From a virus, in IMG/VR virus record IMGVR_UViG_3300031920_000103, positions 47,874-111,873 of that record: 64,000 nt of DNA; one strand, 5' to 3'. Both the position numbers and the translations under genes were made by a program. Below, piece by piece: positions 2,581 through 55,702 of the stretch. The stretch's first letter is position 1. Every line of letters begins with the position of its first letter. Under the pieces are notes generated by a model. It was given only the letters and a program-made list of their open reading frames with translations, searched no databases and was not told the DNA's origin.

Positions 2581-3043
2581 AAGTTGATACCCCAAGTTTA
2601 AGATCGGTTGCGCCGACAGATTCGTAAATCGTGCGAATGTACAAGCCTGCGTAAACCACCATAGTCGAGTCAACGCGGAACTCTTGCCGCTCTGTTGATC
2701 GCGGGTTGACGTACTCGGTTACGACGTACTTTTTAAGCTCTAGCACGTCGACACCAACGGTCAGCCCGTAGGTCGCAAACAGTCCTAGCGCGTCGTCTTT
2801 GTCTACTACGGCCTCCTCGATGTAATCACCGATCGCCGCGTTAGCGTCGAGCACTTGGTACCAACCGCCGCGCAACTCGCGCTCGGTCGTTACGGGTATG
2901 TCGAAAATGTTTGTAGCACCGGCCGTGATCGAGTAGAGGTTTCCCCTCCACTTGGGATGCAATCCCCCGGTGTCCTCGAAACCGGAGACAACGATCGGCT
3001 GACCCTTGGCGTTAGTCGGCTGTGTTTTTAGGTTCAAGCTCAT
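2567..3043 (-). CDS. Hypothetical virion-associated protein
   Basis: 158 residues with predicted beta strands (LYSITAGATNIFDIPV, WYQVLDANAAIGDYI, RQEFRVDSTMVVYAGLYI). No signal, TM or known catalytic motif. It overlaps the upstream gene by an ATGA and lies in the appendage block, so it is probably a structural or tail-appendage protein. I do not recognise the family. Confidence 0.8.
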   Translation of the reverse strand: MSLNLKTQPTNAKGQPIVVSGFEDTGGLHPKWRGNLYSITAGATNIFDIPVTTERELRGGWYQVLDANAAIGDYIEEAVVDKDDALGLFATYGLTVGVDVLELKKYVVTEYVNPRSTERQEFRVDSTMVVYAGLYIRTIYESVGATDLKLGVSTFAYE

Positions 3044-22569: not shown

Positions 22570-24252
22570 CTATTGAAGCGATGCCCTGATGCCTAGCGTG
22601 AAGCCTGCACCGTCAGTGTTGATTTGGGTTGTGATCGACTTGCCCGCGTAAAGTCCGGCGACCGCCTGCACCTCTTCGTAGATAGCAAGCTCGCAGTCTG
22701 GCGAACCCTCCGCGCTTCCGTTGATGTCTGCCCGCTGCGTTGCCCCTGCCGGTGGCGTCACCACTGACGACGCCAAACCGCCCGCTCGGCATAGAGAGAA
22801 TGCGGAAAGCATGATCGAATTCGCGTGGGTTGTGGTGGCGTTGGGTAGGGTGTGCGCGGCTGTAGCGGTACCCGTAGCAAGGTTGGCGAGAACCTCAAGC
22901 TGCGTTGCGTGCGCCGGGCGATACGTGAGGCACACAGCAAGCTCTAACCCGTTTGACGGATCAAGCATTGCGATGTCGTAGCTTGCGGGCTCGCTGCTAG
23001 CAAAACGGTGAAACACGTGGTGGTAGGTAACAGTCGATAGCAAAGGCATACTCGCCTTAGAGTCGAGCACCCATCCCGGCGGTGTAGCCGGCGACGTTTG
23101 AGAGGCGTTAAAACCTGTCATGATCAAAACCATCAAGTCGCCATCGACTGTGCCCGCCGGAACGGGAACCGTAACGGTGGCGTCAACGGCAGGGTTAACA
23201 ACCGTCGACGACGCCACAAATATTGGGAGTATTGAGATCGCTTGTGTGAAACTCAAATCCGTTGCGGAGTCGTCGAGCCAACCCCATACGCAATCACCAA
23301 CGCATACAAATGTTCTGTTGCCGGCCAGTGGAAGCGTGTCTAGATCGAGCAAGTGTTGCCCTGTTATATTTCGGCTGCACCAATACCAATCGTAAAGACC
23401 ACCTAGAGGGCCAACGTCAGAGACTACCCGACTGACCAACGTGCCCCCGTACAGGCGTGGGCTGCTCCCCGTTTCCTGCAACTCAATAACTTCGTTTGTG
23501 GTGTACACCGGGGCAACTACTTTGGCGAGAAACCCAACACCGGCCTTGCGGCCCCAGAATGGCTCGGTGCTTTGCATCACCTCCCACCTTAGACAACTCA
23601 AGGCGCTTGCGACCGTTGACTTTAGGAAGTACCAAACGAAGTTCTCAGCCCAGTCCGGATCCGGCAGCCTAGGTCTCTCAAAACCCCACGCAGCGCAAGG
23701 AACTTCCGAGTTTACGTCAGAAATGACAACACGAGTGCACTCGCCATCGGTTGACTGAATGCACGTTAAGATTTTGTCTGTGTAGACCCCGGCTTGGTCG
23801 CCAAGCCAACCGGTAACAGTCCCAAGAAACTCGTCAGGCGCGGTCGGCCTAGCCGTAGCAGACCCACCAGAAAAACTCCCAGAAGGGCTAACAATAGAAA
23901 CGATGTCGTCCCGAGTAAGGTCTAGCGCTAAGAGCCTCTCTAGCGAAATGCAAACCTGAGCACCGGTACCGGGTTGCTGTAGAACGATCCAACTGTATGG
24001 TGTGCCCGCCGTCGTTATGTAAACAAGATCGCCGGTATCGACCCAACGGTCAGACGCATCCATCGCGCCAACAAGCGAGTCGGATGATCCTGCCACCGTC
24101 CACGGCCAAGTATTGAACCCTACGAATGCGTCCCTGATTTTTAGGAGCATTGCCCGTTGCTGATTCGCGCCCACGACGAGCTTATTTACAAACTCAGTTC
24201 CGCCTAGGCTAGAGCCGCCTTGCCAAGTCTTTTGTAGGGCTGGAAGTGCCAT
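22570..24252 (-). CDS. Large appendage protein with added C-terminal phage domain
   Basis: 560 residues. Residues 1-340 are paralogous to the downstream gene (SWIVLQQPGTGAQVCISLER, GGLYDWYWCSRNITGQH). Residues 345-560 form a separate domain of a type often found at the ends of phage tail proteins: VPAGTVDGDLMVLIMTGFN, PPGWVLDSKASMPL, HVFHRFASSEPASYD. It lies between the spike/hub block and gp25. Probably a baseplate appendage. Confidence 0.82.
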   Translation of the reverse strand: MALPALQKTWQGGSSLGGTEFVNKLVVGANQQRAMLLKIRDAFVGFNTWPWTVAGSSDSLVGAMDASDRWVDTGDLVYITTAGTPYSWIVLQQPGTGAQVCISLERLLALDLTRDDIVSIVSPSGSFSGGSATARPTAPDEFLGTVTGWLGDQAGVYTDKILTCIQSTDGECTRVVISDVNSEVPCAAWGFERPRLPDPDWAENFVWYFLKSTVASALSCLRWEVMQSTEPFWGRKAGVGFLAKVVAPVYTTNEVIELQETGSSPRLYGGTLVSRVVSDVGPLGGLYDWYWCSRNITGQHLLDLDTLPLAGNRTFVCVGDCVWGWLDDSATDLSFTQAISILPIFVASSTVVNPAVDATVTVPVPAGTVDGDLMVLIMTGFNASQTSPATPPGWVLDSKASMPLLSTVTYHHVFHRFASSEPASYDIAMLDPSNGLELAVCLTYRPAHATQLEVLANLATGTATAAHTLPNATTTHANSIMLSAFSLCRAGGLASSVVTPPAGATQRADINGSAEGSPDCELAIYEEVQAVAGLYAGKSITTQINTDGAGFTLGIRASLQ

Positions 24253-46946: not shown

Positions 46947-48908
46947 TTAGCCCTCGTTTGCGTCGTCGTCTACGTCTGCCTTTGTTGCCATGAATTCGTC
47001 GCTAGCCATTTGCAACTCGGCCTCGTGTATCGTGTTGCGGAACTGGATCAATTTCTTGGCGCTATCAAACAACTCGTCTTTTTCGATCGGAGGTAGTCGA
47101 CGAAATTTGCGCGGCTGCTTTTTCTTTTTCTTGCCGCCCGCTTTGAGGTCGTCTGTCGAGGTGTCGGCCGCCTCTTTGCCGTCGCTCGCGCCGCCCGTTG
47201 CCTTCGGCGCTTTTGGGTCTTTGGTGTCGCGCTCTGCGGGCGGTGTGTTCGGTTCCGCGCGCGTTGCGGGATCGAAAGCCTCCTCGGGAATGAACCCGGA
47301 AGCGGTCATCACTAGCGGCTGATTTGCCCAGAACTCGTCGATCTGCGGAAACGGTTTGTTGAAAACGTCTTCGGCAAGGTTGCGCGCCTCGCCCGGCAGG
47401 ATGATGCCATCGCGTACCATGCCGCGAATCATCTCAGACAGCCTTGCGGGGTCTTTCGAGATCGGGCCTAGGCTCGTGAACTTCCAAAAGCGTATACCAA
47501 GATCGGTCAGAATCTTGCGATTCATCGTCCAATCAAACTCCTCTCGCTCGGGCTGGAAAACCTGCATCTCGGCAAAAAGTAGTGCGGCCTCTGCGGTCGA
47601 TCTATTGAAATCGCGAATGTCACCGCGAAGCATACGAGGCAAACGAAACGACTGCCCAACCTTGTCGATGTTGCGCTCATCATAATTCTGAAATAGCGCG
47701 TCGCTTTGTTGTGCTTGCGTTAGCGGCTTGATCTCGATCTTCACTTGTCCGGAGTTTGGCGTTGCGTTGCTATCCGCCTCAATAAACAAAATCTTGTGAA
47801 AGTTTTTCTTTCCCTTGATCTCGTTGTCTACAAAATCTTGGATGCGCGTTACAGCCTCGTCGGTCATGCGCCCGCCAGATACGAGAACGGCAAGAGGCGG
47901 CACGCTCTTGTTCTCGAAATACATAAAGTTGACCTCTTCGGCCTGACGGTTTCCGAGCACTGCGAGCAACGCGCCGATCCAACGTGGCACGCCGTACGAC
48001 GATCGCGGTGAATGTATTTTGAAGTGCAACATCTCGGTTGCGGGGCCGGTAAGCCCGAGACCGTCCGGATCCTCTGCGGCCTTCAGCGCGTCTTCGTCTA
48101 CGAACGTCTCGCCGGTTCTGCGAGACATAACGCGTTCGTCGCCTAGCTCTTTGAAGTACACTTTTCCGCTAGTGTTGCCGGCGATGATCTGCACGTACCT
48201 ACGAAACTGTTTTGGGCGCTCGACGACATCAAGCGAAAGCTCTGATACACGCACGCGCTCTTGCACAACAACGCAATCTTTTTTGCGCTGCGGCATTAGC
48301 CGCATTGTGTGCGACGGCACGAAAGTAAACTGCGCGATCTTGCCGCCTTTGTTGCGCACGATTTCCCAGTAGCTATTTCCCGTTACCTCGATGTCTTGCC
48401 GGGTCTTGCGTCGGTGCGTGATAAAGCTGGAATCAGCGCAGCAAAAATCAAAGAACGCGTTTACGCGCGCTTTCTCTTGGCGCATCTCGCGCACAAGTTT
48501 TTCTTTCGCGGCCTCGACTTCTTTGTCAGTCGGCATGGTCGCTTTGTCACTACCTTGCGCTACGCGGTCGACGAAAATTGCGTTTGCGATCCGCTCGTCA
48601 GCGTCCTCTGCCATCGGGTCGATAACAGGCTCTAGCTTGTAGCCAAAGCCGTCGATGTTCGTTTGGTACGCGTCGATGTTTTGGCGTAGCGCGTTCGAGT
48701 GCTCAAGCAACATGCACAGCGTCTCGGGACTGTGCGGCGGTACTAGCGCGCCGGCACTTTCAAAGCTCGCGTGCTTGTCTTCGTACGGCAGCGAATTGGT
48801 CGCCCCGCCTTTCGCAACTGCGGTTTTTTCGGATACGAAATGAACCTTTACGATCTCAGCCCGATCGTCTTCGGCCTTAACGACTGCTAGCTCATGCCCT
48901 TTATCCAC
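46947..48908 (-). CDS. Portal protein (PBSX/XkdE-like)
   Basis: 653 residues. Characteristic segments: NALRQNIDAYQTNIDGFGY, DIEVTGNSYWEIVRNKGGKI, MLHFKIHSPRSSYGVPRWIG, RQAEEVNFMYFENKSVPPLA and QSFRLPRMLRGDIRDFNRST. The C-terminal 100 residues are a charged tail with KKKKKQPRKFRR. It forms the dodecameric DNA gate. Gene order portal, MuF, protease, scaffold, capsid is normal for myophages. Confidence 0.93.
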   Translation of the reverse strand: MDKGHELAVVKAEDDRAEIVKVHFVSEKTAVAKGGATNSLPYEDKHASFESAGALVPPHSPETLCMLLEHSNALRQNIDAYQTNIDGFGYKLEPVIDPMAEDADERIANAIFVDRVAQGSDKATMPTDKEVEAAKEKLVREMRQEKARVNAFFDFCCADSSFITHRRKTRQDIEVTGNSYWEIVRNKGGKIAQFTFVPSHTMRLMPQRKKDCVVVQERVRVSELSLDVVERPKQFRRYVQIIAGNTSGKVYFKELGDERVMSRRTGETFVDEDALKAAEDPDGLGLTGPATEMLHFKIHSPRSSYGVPRWIGALLAVLGNRQAEEVNFMYFENKSVPPLAVLVSGGRMTDEAVTRIQDFVDNEIKGKKNFHKILFIEADSNATPNSGQVKIEIKPLTQAQQSDALFQNYDERNIDKVGQSFRLPRMLRGDIRDFNRSTAEAALLFAEMQVFQPEREEFDWTMNRKILTDLGIRFWKFTSLGPISKDPARLSEMIRGMVRDGIILPGEARNLAEDVFNKPFPQIDEFWANQPLVMTASGFIPEEAFDPATRAEPNTPPAERDTKDPKAPKATGGASDGKEAADTSTDDLKAGGKKKKKQPRKFRRLPPIEKDELFDSAKKLIQFRNTIHEAELQMASDEFMATKADVDDDANEG

Positions 48909-50312: not shown

Positions 50313-50915
50313 ATGCAAACACCACAAGATGCGTTTAACGCGATGATGTCCAAATTGAGATCGGAGGGCGTGCGCGTTTCCGACAAGACCGGTTGGTTTT
50401 GGAACGCGATGCACTACGCGGTCATGCTGATAACGTTCGGCGGGAATCGGAGATTCCGAGAATACTACACCACGATCGGGCCGGTGATCGGCGTGCCGCT
50501 TGGTTGGGAAAAGCGCGGCTATGCCGACCGATACGCAACGCTAAAACACGAGTATCGGCACGTCAGGCAATTCCGAAAAGGCGGGCTCGGGTCTGCGTGG
50601 CTCGGAATTCTTACCACCGGCACCGCGTATCTTTTGCTACCTTTGCCGGTTGGCTTTGCTTGGTGTCGTTGGCGCATGGAGCGCGCCGCATACGCGGAGG
50701 GGATCCGCGCGTACCTATCGCTCAAGCCTAGCGCCTCTGAGCGCGACCGCCGCATTGCTAGCGCCACCGATCAACTTACGGGTGGCGCGTACGCGTGGAC
50801 CGCCGCGCTATGGCCCGGCCGCAAACGCGTAGAGGCTTGGTTTCAGAGCGCTGTGCCCCTCATCCCTAGCGCCAACTCGCCGCGCCTGCATCTCGCGGTC
50901 GCCGATAACGAGTAG
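50313..50915 (+). CDS. Rightward gene: HExxH-motif membrane-associated protein
   Basis: 200 residues. HEYRH at 79-83 in the context YATLKHEYRHVRQFRKG resembles zinc metallopeptidase sites (HExxH), with a possible third ligand Glu at 123 (RMERAAYAEG). Hydrophobic stretches at about 35-42 and 95-115 (LGILTTGTAYLLLPLPVGFAW). It is one of two rightward genes in the window and has its own rightward terminator at 51179-51203. Only the motif suggests a peptidase; other function is possible. The ribosome site is weak (AGGA 12 bases away). Confidence 0.75.
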   Translation: MQTPQDAFNAMMSKLRSEGVRVSDKTGWFWNAMHYAVMLITFGGNRRFREYYTTIGPVIGVPLGWEKRGYADRYATLKHEYRHVRQFRKGGLGSAWLGILTTGTAYLLLPLPVGFAWCRWRMERAAYAEGIRAYLSLKPSASERDRRIASATDQLTGGAYAWTAALWPGRKRVEAWFQSAVPLIPSANSPRLHLAVADNE

Positions 50916-52157: not shown

Positions 52158-54707
52158 CTACCTGACTAGCGCAAGTTTTGGTTTCGACTTGCCAAAGATG
52201 CGAACACCAACGCCATCCGATCGACGCGAGTTGCGCCTAGCTCCCTCACGCGCCAACCACAACGACATAAGACGATCGCCCGTGTGCGCGTCGGGTTGAT
52301 AGTAGAGCATTTCGGTGATCAGCTTTTCGACTTCCGGATCTAGCTTGCCGCCCTCGTTGGGTAGCACCCATTTGTCGTTTGCGAACTCGGCAGCAAGCGA
52401 CTCGACCCCGAACTCAGGGTGTAGCTTGTTGCGCCCGGTTGTGAACGGTTGCACGGGTACTGCGCTTGTGTCGCGAGTAAACTGCAAAATGAAATCTTGC
52501 GCTGCGTTGTTCTCGACCGTGACGATCGAGTTGTACCGCTCGTGCGTGTCTATGATGCGATCGACGATCTCGGGTCCAGACCAACGCCCGGCCTCTACGC
52601 AAAGCAGCCGCCGATCTTGGTTGGGCATAACCATGATAGTCGAGATCGCCGTGTAGTCAGCGGCAGCGTGCTTTTGCACCGCCATGTCGACCCCAGAAAA
52701 ACACGCATACCCGGAGTCGCCGCCAAGCCTTGTCACCGACGCGTGATACGCCGCCATCTCTTCGGCTACGATGTCCTCGGTCAGTCGGTGGATAACCGGC
52801 CACGAGTCGCCGGCCGATAGCGCCTTGTCGATGTACTCACGTTTAAATCGTGCGTCGCTCTCGTCGCGTGCCTCGCACATCATTGTGCGCGCGAATTCCA
52901 AAGGCCCACGCTCGATCCGCTCTTGCGCGATACGGGCCAGCGGCCAACGGTCTAGCCACGTCGATTCGCCCTCTACGTTTAGCACCGGGAATCTGTGCGA
53001 CTGGTAAAGCGCGTTTGCCTCAAGTCGATGGTACAGATCTTCGGGGTGCCACGGTGTGCCGATCGCAATGACTGTCGCGTCTTTTGTGAGTCGAGATGCA
53101 ACGGTCGACCGGTACCAATCGAAAAGGTCTTGCCGTGCGCGCGGCGTTTGGCAGTTTTCAAAATCGAGAACATCGTCGAGGATCAGGTGATCGATACGGG
53201 CACCAACGACCGCGCCGTGCACGCCGAACGCCTGCAAGCTCGGATCTTTCGACACGTTTGTGCGCTCGATCGAGATAGCGTTTGCGCGCCATAGTTCGCC
53301 CGGCTTTAGGTGCGGGAACACAAGCCGCAACTCTTTAGATTCTGCGATGTACTTACCCACCGCGAGGATGATTTTAGACGCCTGCTCGCGGGTGTTTGAT
53401 ATGACCGCGATCCGCATCTTCGGGTTTCGCCCGAGCAACCAAAGCGTGCGGCCTATGCAGATCTGCGAGGTGTTGTGCGTGACCGTGAAATCGTCCAATA
53501 AGAAACGCCCGTCCCCGTCTAGCGTGAATCCCGCGTACTTGCCCCGCCCAACAGGCTCAACCTTGAATCCCGTACGCAAAGGGTTTTTACCGGTGCCCGA
53601 TTTCTCGGTGGTTGGGCACTTCCGCGCAATACGGATTGGTATGCGGGAGAAGTCCCCCTGCATTCGCACACGCCAGTAGATGCCATAACCCGCAACAGTG
53701 CGCGGTTTGATCGACGTAGACAGACCGAGAGAACGCGCTATGCGTACAATCGCACGTGCCCAATCCTCGCGTTTCTGCGTGATCTCTGCGCCGCTATTTC
53801 CCGCCTCGCCGTCTGTGTCTATGTAGCCGGCGAGGAAATTTGCGCGTGTGTCCCACGGTGCTGTTAGCAGAGCTTGCGGAATCGCAATATCATGCCCAAC
53901 AAGATCGCGCATAGCGTCTAGCAAAGGGTTGTTTCTACCGGGTGCACTCGACGAAATGCGGTACGTCGGGCACTTGTCGGGATTGGTGCTCGTCGTAAAT
54001 TCCAGCCCCCAAGAGATAGCGGTAGCGCGAACGCAATCCGCTATCTCTGCGTCTGGCTTAGACACTGCGACCCCGCGTAGTTTGTCGTTCTCCACGCGCT
54101 TAGTGCCATCGCCGAACCAAACGCCTAGGAAGTACGGGTCGACGCTTAGCGTAGCCTCGCCGTCAAAGCACTCTACGTGGGATCGGAAAAGCTTGTATAG
54201 ATGCTTCCAGTATCCGGATTTTTTTAGGTACTCATCGAGCGGGATATCTATGATCTCACCCGTAGTTGTGTGCACCAGCGTGAGCACGTGCACAGAGTTA
54301 CACTCCCACGCGTCCCCCTTGTTCGGCACGATCCGAAACATCTCGTCTGTGCCGCTTGTCGTGCTTAGAACTGTGCGTGGCCCACCCGGCCCCATAACGC
54401 GATCACCAGCGCTCACGTCTTTGGCTAATATGGTCGATCCGTTTGCACGCAAGATCGCGGTGTCTGGTGCTAGGCATTTCCCGGCCTCGGTGTGCGACCA
54501 CAACACGAGACGCTTGCTACCCTCGCACAGTTGGTGCCAGCGTTCGTGGATCGGTGCCTGCTCGATCGGCTTGCCGGTTTCCTCGTCTTTCAGCACGAGT
54601 TCGCAGAACTCGTTTACGTCCTCGCGTGCGATACGAGCGCGCATTGCTAGGTGCGTTTTCGATCGCTCTAGGATCTCCGCTAGAACCTCGTGCTCGGACT
54701 GAGACAT
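52158..54707 (-). CDS. terL: Terminase large subunit interrupted by an intein
   Basis: 849 residues: N-extein 1-77, intein 78-412, C-extein 413-849 (514-residue mature terminase). The joined Walker A reads SHTEAGK/TSQ, with the intein between K and T. Walker B is LILDD at 508-512, followed by motif III VIAIGTPWH (545-553). The nuclease domain has VDMAVQKHAAADYTAI (D674) and TVENNAAQDF (E731). The enzyme pumps DNA through the portal and cuts it. Without splicing the ATPase would be dead, so splicing should be needed. Nothing else in the gene looks broken. Confidence 0.95.
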   Translation of the reverse strand: MSQSEHEVLAEILERSKTHLAMRARIAREDVNEFCELVLKDEETGKPIEQAPIHERWHQLCEGSKRLVLWSHTEAGKCLAPDTAILRANGSTILAKDVSAGDRVMGPGGPRTVLSTTSGTDEMFRIVPNKGDAWECNSVHVLTLVHTTTGEIIDIPLDEYLKKSGYWKHLYKLFRSHVECFDGEATLSVDPYFLGVWFGDGTKRVENDKLRGVAVSKPDAEIADCVRATAISWGLEFTTSTNPDKCPTYRISSSAPGRNNPLLDAMRDLVGHDIAIPQALLTAPWDTRANFLAGYIDTDGEAGNSGAEITQKREDWARAIVRIARSLGLSTSIKPRTVAGYGIYWRVRMQGDFSRIPIRIARKCPTTEKSGTGKNPLRTGFKVEPVGRGKYAGFTLDGDGRFLLDDFTVTHNTSQICIGRTLWLLGRNPKMRIAVISNTREQASKIILAVGKYIAESKELRLVFPHLKPGELWRANAISIERTNVSKDPSLQAFGVHGAVVGARIDHLILDDVLDFENCQTPRARQDLFDWYRSTVASRLTKDATVIAIGTPWHPEDLYHRLEANALYQSHRFPVLNVEGESTWLDRWPLARIAQERIERGPLEFARTMMCEARDESDARFKREYIDKALSAGDSWPVIHRLTEDIVAEEMAAYHASVTRLGGDSGYACFSGVDMAVQKHAAADYTAISTIMVMPNQDRRLLCVEAGRWSGPEIVDRIIDTHERYNSIVTVENNAAQDFILQFTRDTSAVPVQPFTTGRNKLHPEFGVESLAAEFANDKWVLPNEGGKLDPEVEKLITEMLYYQPDAHTGDRLMSLWLAREGARRNSRRSDGVGVRIFGKSKPKLALVR
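53472..54476 (-). mobile_element. Intein with LAGLIDADG homing endonuclease in terL
   Basis: 335 residues (78-412 of the TerL precursor). Splice motifs: Cys1 with CLAPDTAILRANGS, block B NSVHVLTL (H140), C-terminal block F/G FLLDDFTVTHN with His-Asn, and Thr as first C-extein residue. Two LAGLIDADG motifs: FLGVWFGDG (D200) and FLAGYIDTDG (D297/D299). All residues for splicing and homing appear intact. The site within the GK-T of Walker A is a known kind of insertion point for inteins in ATPases. Confidence 0.95.
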
Positions 54708-55141: not shown

Positions 55142-55702
55142 CTACCACTCGTAGCAAAATTTGTCACGCAAGAATTTTGATTCCGCGTCGCTAAGCACGA
55201 TCCGATTTTCGGGGCAGCGGTGTTGGTTCATGATCCCGATCGATCGTTTGCTCGACGCGTCTTCTAGCCCGAGCGCGTGCCCTAGCTCGTGCGCCACGAT
55301 GCAAACTTGTGTGTGGATATTGCCGGGCTGCTCTACATGCAACTCCCAACGGTACCCGCGAAAATTTGGGGCGTCAGGGCTGCACGCGTACGCCATCGCG
55401 CTGTGCCCTGACTCGATGTTTTCGTGGAACGCAAGCCCGCACGGTTCGCCATCGGTCGACATAACCATAGCCGACTCGCCTTGAATCAAAAACTCGCAAC
55501 CGACAAAACCGTTTATGAGATCCATCGCTGCGCGTGTCGGTTCGCTGTAGTCGCCATCAGACGCGACGCCAAAAGTTGCGCGCGCCTCCGGTAGTTTCAT
55601 GCACGCTGACCTGAAAACCAATCCGCCCATAACGAGCACACCAACGATCGTCAGCACGATGTACGCGTAGTACCGAAATTTTCTGAATCGCTTACCCATC
55701 AT
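55142..55702 (-). CDS. Membrane-anchored metzincin-type zinc protease
   Basis: 186 residues. N-terminal TM at 12-31 (YAYIVLTIVGVLVMGGLVF) puts the rest outside the membrane. The zinc site HELGHALGLED (H138, E139, H142, D148) is the metzincin HExxHxxGxx(H/D) form, with Asp as third ligand as in snapalysin-like M7 peptidases, and a Met-turn follows (SIGIMNQ, M158). Several Cys may pair. Upstream overlap ATGA with a small Cys gene. It might act on host envelope proteins, in virion maturation or after infection; target unknown. Confidence 0.85.
   Translation of the reverse strand: MMGKRFRKFRYYAYIVLTIVGVLVMGGLVFRSACMKLPEARATFGVASDGDYSEPTRAAMDLINGFVGCEFLIQGESAMVMSTDGEPCGLAFHENIESGHSAMAYACSPDAPNFRGYRWELHVEQPGNIHTQVCIVAHELGHALGLEDASSKRSIGIMNQHRCPENRIVLSDAESKFLRDKFCYEW

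Follow-up and report, generated by a model that had tools for sequence, protein, structure and literature searches.

A predicted homing intein between the Walker A lysine and threonine of a phage large terminase, and a possible attachment of its lineage to a GK-(S/T) micro-motif

Inteins of the large terminase subunit (TerL) are already in print, and those of the TerL1-a class separate the invariant Lys of Walker A from its Thr, an insertion described as "classic" for the P-loop (PMC5050341). Active homing endonucleases have been demonstrated at two other TerL sites, b and c, and common ancestry has been reported for the DnaB-b and TerL1-c/e inteins (PMC5050341). Approximately 70% of inteins reportedly reside in ATP-binding proteins (PMC5050341; PMC5784728), and one proposed cause of this concentration is regulation (PMC5050341). 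The GLT/CHS and DdRP/ClpP pairs have been put forward as cases in which inteins moved from one gene to another within a genome (PMC5784728). Here we describe an intein in the TerL gene of an uncultured phage, found in a 64,000-nucleotide stretch of DNA (the window) that forms part of the 111,873-bp virus record IMGVR_UViG_3300031920_000103 (record positions 47,874 to 111,873). The class of its insertion site has been published; the new part is a pattern at the level of its family, most members of which lie at a local G-K↓(S/T) motif (the arrow marks the insertion point).

Like the mycobacteriophage TerL1-a inteins, the window intein occupies the Lys/Thr site of Walker A in a large terminase (PMC5050341), but its host is a T7-like (phrog_38) TerL, and the nearest relatives that we found for it are prohead protease and SF2 helicase inteins of other phages. 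It shares its class 1 residues and two LAGLIDADG acids with PI-SceI, the VMA1 intein (1vde, 1ef0, 1lwt), which is the closest solved structure in both sequence and fold, but it interrupts a phage TerL and is shorter (335 versus 454 aa). The Walker A inteins of bacterial DnaB (GMGK↓TAF, with L169 from Hymenobacter as an example) belong to the same family and use the same K↓T position, but they form a set of their own with one host gene, whereas the phage set of the window intein spans many. The GLT/CHS and DdRP/ClpP inteins provide a precedent for moves between non-homologous genes (PMC5784728), although gene pairs are involved there and at least a dozen host families with one micro-motif appear to be involved here.

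The TerL precursor is encoded by a single open reading frame (ORF) that is split exactly by the insert (Table 1). The intein comprises residues 78 to 412 of the precursor, with the junctions WSHTEAGK↓CLAPDT and FTVTHN↓TSQICIG, and its scores exceed all curated cut-offs of the Pfam profiles Hom_end_hint, Hom_end, and LAGLIDADG_3. The extein is recognized as a terminase by phrog_38, whose match spans precursor residues 416 to 829, and by 4bij, while its score of 89 bits with the NCBIfam profile termin_lrg_T7 falls short of that profile's cut-off of 150. The combination of Cys1, a block B His, and a terminal His-Asn pair followed by Thr with an in-frame insert that is precisely absent from homologues is that of a class 1 intein, in which block B reads NSVH (the NxxH type) rather than TxxH, and two motifs carrying one acidic residue each are those of a LAGLIDADG homing endonuclease. 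Its position, after the Lys and before the Thr of Walker A, is of the TerL1-a type. We therefore consider it almost certain, judging from the sequence, that this is a class 1 LAGLIDADG mobile intein inside a T7-like TerL. An earlier note, made from the letters of the window alone, had proposed an intein at this position with the same set of splice and nuclease residues and had observed that terminase inteins are known; the profile search, the exact split of the reading frame, and the literature on the TerL1-a class bear it out. Plus-strand ORFs within the intein (e.g., 53848-54702) lie antisense to this well-supported gene.

Table 1. Coordinates of the TerL precursor and of its predicted intein parts in the window.
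Feature	Positions	Strand	Support
TerL precursor ORF, 849 aa (514-aa extein and 335-aa intein)	52158..54707	-	phrog_38 E=9.3e-63
TerL N-extein, 77 aa, ending ...WSHTEAGK; Walker A Lys (54477-54479) is residue -1	54477..54707	-	adjoins the C-extein in 41/55 relatives
Intein, 335 aa, predicted class 1, Hint domain and LAGLIDADG homing endonuclease	53472..54476	-	
Cys1, predicted N-terminal splice nucleophile	54474..54476	-	sequence; 143/143 relatives
Block B, N60-S-V-H63	54288..54299	-	sequence; H63 142/143, N60 137/143
LAGLIDADG motif 1, LGVWFGDG, predicted catalytic Asp123	54105..54128	-	alignment to PI-SceI D218; 142/143
LAGLIDADG motif 2, LAGYIDTDG, predicted catalytic Asp222	53808..53834	-	alignment to PI-SceI D326; 141/143
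Predicted C-terminal splice residues His334-Asn335 (block G)	53472..53477	-	sequence; 143/143
Thr+1, predicted C-extein nucleophile and Thr of Walker A GK-T	53469..53471	-	
TerL C-extein, 437 aa, remaining ATPase and nuclease domain	52158..53471	-	phrog_38 E=5.6e-61; T7 gp19 4bij E=3e-11

The residues expected to drive splicing and cleavage are almost invariant across 143 relatives; the few deviations are one X at His63, one Glu at Asp123, and two Asn at Asp222. PI-SceI was the top match among PDB sequences, and its catalytic Asp residues align with those of the window intein (the PI-SceI numbers in Table 1 are taken from the printed alignment). An AlphaFold2 model of the intein, built from a 55-row alignment, reached a mean pLDDT of 96.3 and a pTM of 0.93; its top fold matches in the PDB were PI-SceI entries (E=2.6e-24), followed by archaeal VMA inteins, PI-PfuI, and Prp8 inteins (TMt 0.87 for a Prp8 intein against the model), as would be expected of a predicted Hint (Hedgehog/intein) fold. 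The TerL intein is expected to splice and cleave.

The absence of the insert from relatives was evident when IMG/VR was searched with the C-extein, which yielded 55 TerL loci, identical copies included. In 41 of them the N- and C-extein matches abut with a gap of 0 exactly at the insertion point, where the empty sites read ESGK-TQQ, EAGK-SQQ, and similar (e.g., WAHVESGK-TQQLSIGRTL). This contiguity indicates that the junction residues are the terminase's own and that the insert is not part of it. One locus deviates by 3 nt (L028), three loci (L006, L020, L051) carry other inserts at the same place that end in ..HN, and the remaining loci are truncated or lack an N-extein match, although five of these (L044, L048, L049, L050, and L054) visibly read through. 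The insert of L051, located upstream of locus position 3001, is 142 aa long and ends in VVTHN↓S; by its sequence it is probably a mini-intein of another type.

The family was collected with searches seeded by a 7-row intein alignment that relied on intein-internal motifs only and made no use of the flanks. The relatives comprise the best 80 of 282 viral and the best 80 of 234 genomic matches, of which 143 distinct complete inteins were left after the removal of 16 duplicates, 4 truncated rows, and 1 row with a frameshift. All 143 sit at one of two types of site: 107 occupy K↓(S/T), 105 of them behind a Gly at -2, and the other 36 occupy G↓(S/T/C)GK. According to clustering and profiles, their hosts are SF2 helicases (57), DnaB (56), prohead proteases (8), and TerL (3), along with rarer hosts represented by one to three inteins each, namely UvrD, SNF2, DEAD_2, deoxynucleoside kinase, T2SSE, AAA, SMC-like and Cdc6 proteins, and unknowns, so that the close relatives appear to occupy at least a dozen host families. 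Nine of the 143 lie clearly outside Walker A, these being the eight prohead protease inteins and one SF2 helicase intein (L101) at CGGK↓S in the second domain of the helicase. In a control set of 41 PF14890 inteins from two bacterial classes, 15 were in the DnaB Walker A motif, one was at an unclassified GK↓S, and 25 were elsewhere, which shows a stronger preference for GK sites in the family of the TerL intein than in inteins generally.

The prohead protease inteins are located at HPGDGK↓(S/T) (L067, L068, L071, L073, L076, L090, L091, L105), and the identity of their host was established by a match to phrog_207 and homology to T4 gp21 (5jbl). An intein-free prohead protease homologue that is 57% identical (L342) reads HPGDGK-S; the motif is a P-loop look-alike in a protein that is not an ATPase. 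A search seeded with L090 for more prohead protease relatives returned only L090 itself and its copy. In the phage collection, a further relative interrupts the portal protein of the crAss-like phage cr118_1 (L329, MT774379.1) at REGGK↓S; intein-free crAss portals read REGGK-P in all three that were compared, and the Ser in place of Pro therefore gives the invaded lineage a usable +1 residue. Few Cys, Ser, or Thr positions are preceded by GK in these hosts (1 of 67-109 for the portal and for every prohead protease tested; 3 of 50 for the L101 helicase). The placement in Walker A of the terminase stands, but the earlier note's focus on the terminase ATPase proved too narrow: close relatives also use GK↓(S/T) in DnaB and other helicases, in kinases, in SMC-like and AAA proteins, and in prohead proteases and portals, so that the site is peculiar neither to terminases nor to ATPases. 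In the open-access literature, to which our search was confined, the accessible portions of PMC3868849, PMC3185647, PMC3322345, PMC12363816, and PMC7886860 mention no intein in a prohead protease or crAss portal, and a family-wide GK↓(S/T) preference that includes such look-alikes was not found in print.

Several observations were made alongside these surveys. The portal inteins L329, L348, L349, L351, and L354 occupy three nearby sites. Eight Ruegeria phage records matched the TerL intein, and the tape measure protein of Ruegeria phage vB_RpoS-V7 (L330) carries a shorter relative at AGKG↓T, apparently without most of the nuclease. A helicase intein that is nearly identical to L061 and L086 has a frameshift in the nuclease region (L063), which could be decay or an assembly error. 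The downstream part of L106, a 1,711-aa phage ORF with a family intein, seems to hold further Intein_splicing/HNH inteins. The two records of Klebsiella phage JD001 (JX866719.1 / NC_020204.1) label the same intein-bearing gene differently, one as "putative helicase" and the other as "terminase large subunit".

In our best reading, the TerL intein is an ordinary homing intein from a lineage directed at the local GK↓(S/T) motif and not at any single gene. More specifically, we tentatively propose (probability about 0.45) that one phage LAGLIDADG lineage is bound to this micro-motif and moves between non-homologous genes that carry it at a conserved position, and that, for that lineage, the enrichment of inteins in ATPases is a by-product of target and splice context; its sites would be the Walker A motifs of terminases, helicases, kinases, and AAA proteins together with the look-alikes in prohead proteases and portals. 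This family-level part is less sure than the assignment of an intein to TerL, and a number of points weigh against it. The sample is limited to the best matches, and some singleton host labels rely on weak profile matches. A deeper search around the portal intein yielded 71 distinct new rows. Of these, 59 fit the pattern by script and three by eye (L356, L372, L389), one more was truncated (L350), and eight were real exceptions, namely three helicases interrupted upstream of Walker A, two inteins at other portal sites, and three further cases. Close to the window intein the pattern holds strongly, and it weakens with distance. Outside the GK↓T codons, the DNA flanking the inteins is only about 0.32 identical between different host families, flank identity barely tracks how similar the inteins are (rho 0.07, a value reached in 9 of 500 permutations), and no long nuclease target common to the host genes was found beyond these codons in 48 nt of flank at 106 K↓-type sites. 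Such low identity implies that the nuclease tolerates most positions or that rare insertions survive only in a suitable splice context, and the present data do not choose between the two. Finally, monophyly of the TerL inteins was not rejected with three TerL rows in an approximately unbiased (AU) test (p=0.103), nor was sisterhood of the phage's two inteins, described below (p=0.055).

The trees bear most directly on a rather doubtful alternative, namely plain allelic spread from the TerL intein of another phage, for which the cross-gene pattern would be irrelevant to the window copy. Inheritance faithful to the gene does occur in the family, as the bacterial DnaB inteins form one clade, and one tree pairs the window intein with L118, the other phrog_38 TerL intein (Shimodaira-Hasegawa-like approximate likelihood ratio test 85); however, L118 is an unstable long branch that joins the phage's DnaB-like intein in two other trees. 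In a quick tree of 143 rows, the window intein groups with one SF2 intein and the inteins of prohead proteases (support 87), and this group is nested in a set of 42 rows that covers many host families (97); most bacterial DnaB inteins form a separate set. In a careful tree of 70 rows, it falls in a 25-row set (97/91) without any other TerL intein. When eight further TerL inteins were added, seven identified by terminase profiles and the eighth by record annotation, most TerL inteins were placed near the bacterial DnaB inteins and the window intein remained with the prohead proteases (95). In all three trees the inteins nearest to it come from prohead proteases and SF2 helicases, and a single clade of all eleven TerL inteins was rejected (AU p=1.4e-6; 42-row tree). 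A recent jump within the same genome, which would have produced the TerL intein and the DnaB-like intein of the phage, is improbable. Both do lie in one record at the same GK↓(T/S) position with 41.9% identity, and their sisterhood narrowly escapes rejection at 0.05, but the best trees put them in different clades and give duplication within the genome no support, their identity is not above that shared with many inteins from other phages (up to 52%), and their flanking DNA is just 0.256 identical.

We likewise regard it as unlikely that the P-loop site was selected as a switch of the ATPase, with conditional splicing of TerL in response to redox, metal, ATP, or late-infection signals timing the packaging of DNA. 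This idea draws on the published concentration of inteins in ATP-binding proteins and on regulation as its proposed cause (PMC5050341), as well as on the presumable destruction of the P-loop in the precursor; against it stand the close relatives that use GK↓(S/T) in portals and prohead proteases, which are not ATPases, and the almost full retention of nuclease residues, which fits active homing rather than domestication. That the insert is a dead relic that no longer splices and leaves TerL inactive is very improbable: it has no direct support, and the closest relative at hand (~52%) is too distant for a selection test, whereas the 849-aa frame is open, all catalytic residues are present, the model has a pLDDT of 96, and the TerL extein is normal on either side of the intein.

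Class 1 splicing proceeds through an N-S acyl shift, transesterification, Asn cyclisation, and release. For the homing intein that we favor, the precursor would be translated straight through the intein, and the Hint domain would carry out the N-S acyl shift at Cys1 with the aid of His63, followed by transesterification to Thr+1 and by cyclisation of Asn335 with the aid of His334, whereupon the intein would be released and its excision would restore ...EAGK-TSQ... and the Walker A loop. It is very plausible that the packaging ATPase is dead until splicing, as the earlier note had proposed, because the precursor is predicted to be unable to form the P-loop. The LAGLIDADG domain, acting through Asp123 and Asp222, would cleave alleles that lack the intein across their GGN-AAR↓ACN codons, and the intein gene would be copied into the cut allele during co-infection. 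The site would be retained because GK-T tolerates almost no change at its Lys or Thr, so that a deletion that is not exact would be fatal to the motor and few targets would be resistant; that such a conserved site "prevents clean loss" of the intein, another proposal of the earlier note, would accord with the standard argument, which is also found in PMC7765530. At the level of the family, the common determinant would be the local G-K↓(S/T), as a nuclease target and/or as a splice context (Lys at -1, Ser/Thr at +1), rather than ATPase function, and non-homologous genes with this motif would have been entered repeatedly.

The virus record contains genes for a portal, a minor head protein, a protease, a tail sheath, and a tape measure protein (profile matches), and therefore belongs to a myovirus-type phage; no tRNA genes were found within the 64-kb window. 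Its second intein (L057) lies outside the window at record positions 22874-23923 on the minus strand, with the junctions GAGDGK↓CLAKGT...TITHN↓SMGL, which place it, like the TerL intein, at K↓(S/T) of a Walker A motif (GDGK↓S), here in a DnaB-like host (PF03796, 26.7 bits, just below the cut-off of 27). A RecA-like ORF of the same record, labeled by eye, has the P-loop DEGAGKSSAAL without an insert. Two full-length family members in different genes were found in five of the 46 virus records searched, with pair identities of 42-52%: TerL and a DnaB-like protein in the window phage, a prohead protease and a deoxynucleoside kinase in two records, a prohead protease and an SF2 helicase, and two AAA-type proteins. 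Elsewhere in the window, positions 55142-55702 (minus strand) encode a small, metzincin-like protein with an N-terminal hydrophobic stretch and HELGHALGLED (Peptidase_M10 E=3e-4, below the cut-off), and an ORF at 50313-50915 (plus strand), opposite to the gene direction, carries the HExxH-like motif HEYRH and matched no Pfam profile.

Taken alone, the TerL intein is ordinary, but its family constitutes a natural experiment on whether P-loop inteins reflect regulation of ATPases or local sequence, and the virion hosts that are not ATPases, along with the intein-free prohead protease that has the motif, allow the two ideas to be separated. If our reading is true, the enrichment of inteins in ATPases would, for the lineage bound to the GK motif, not stem from selection for the regulation of ATP-dependent enzymes.

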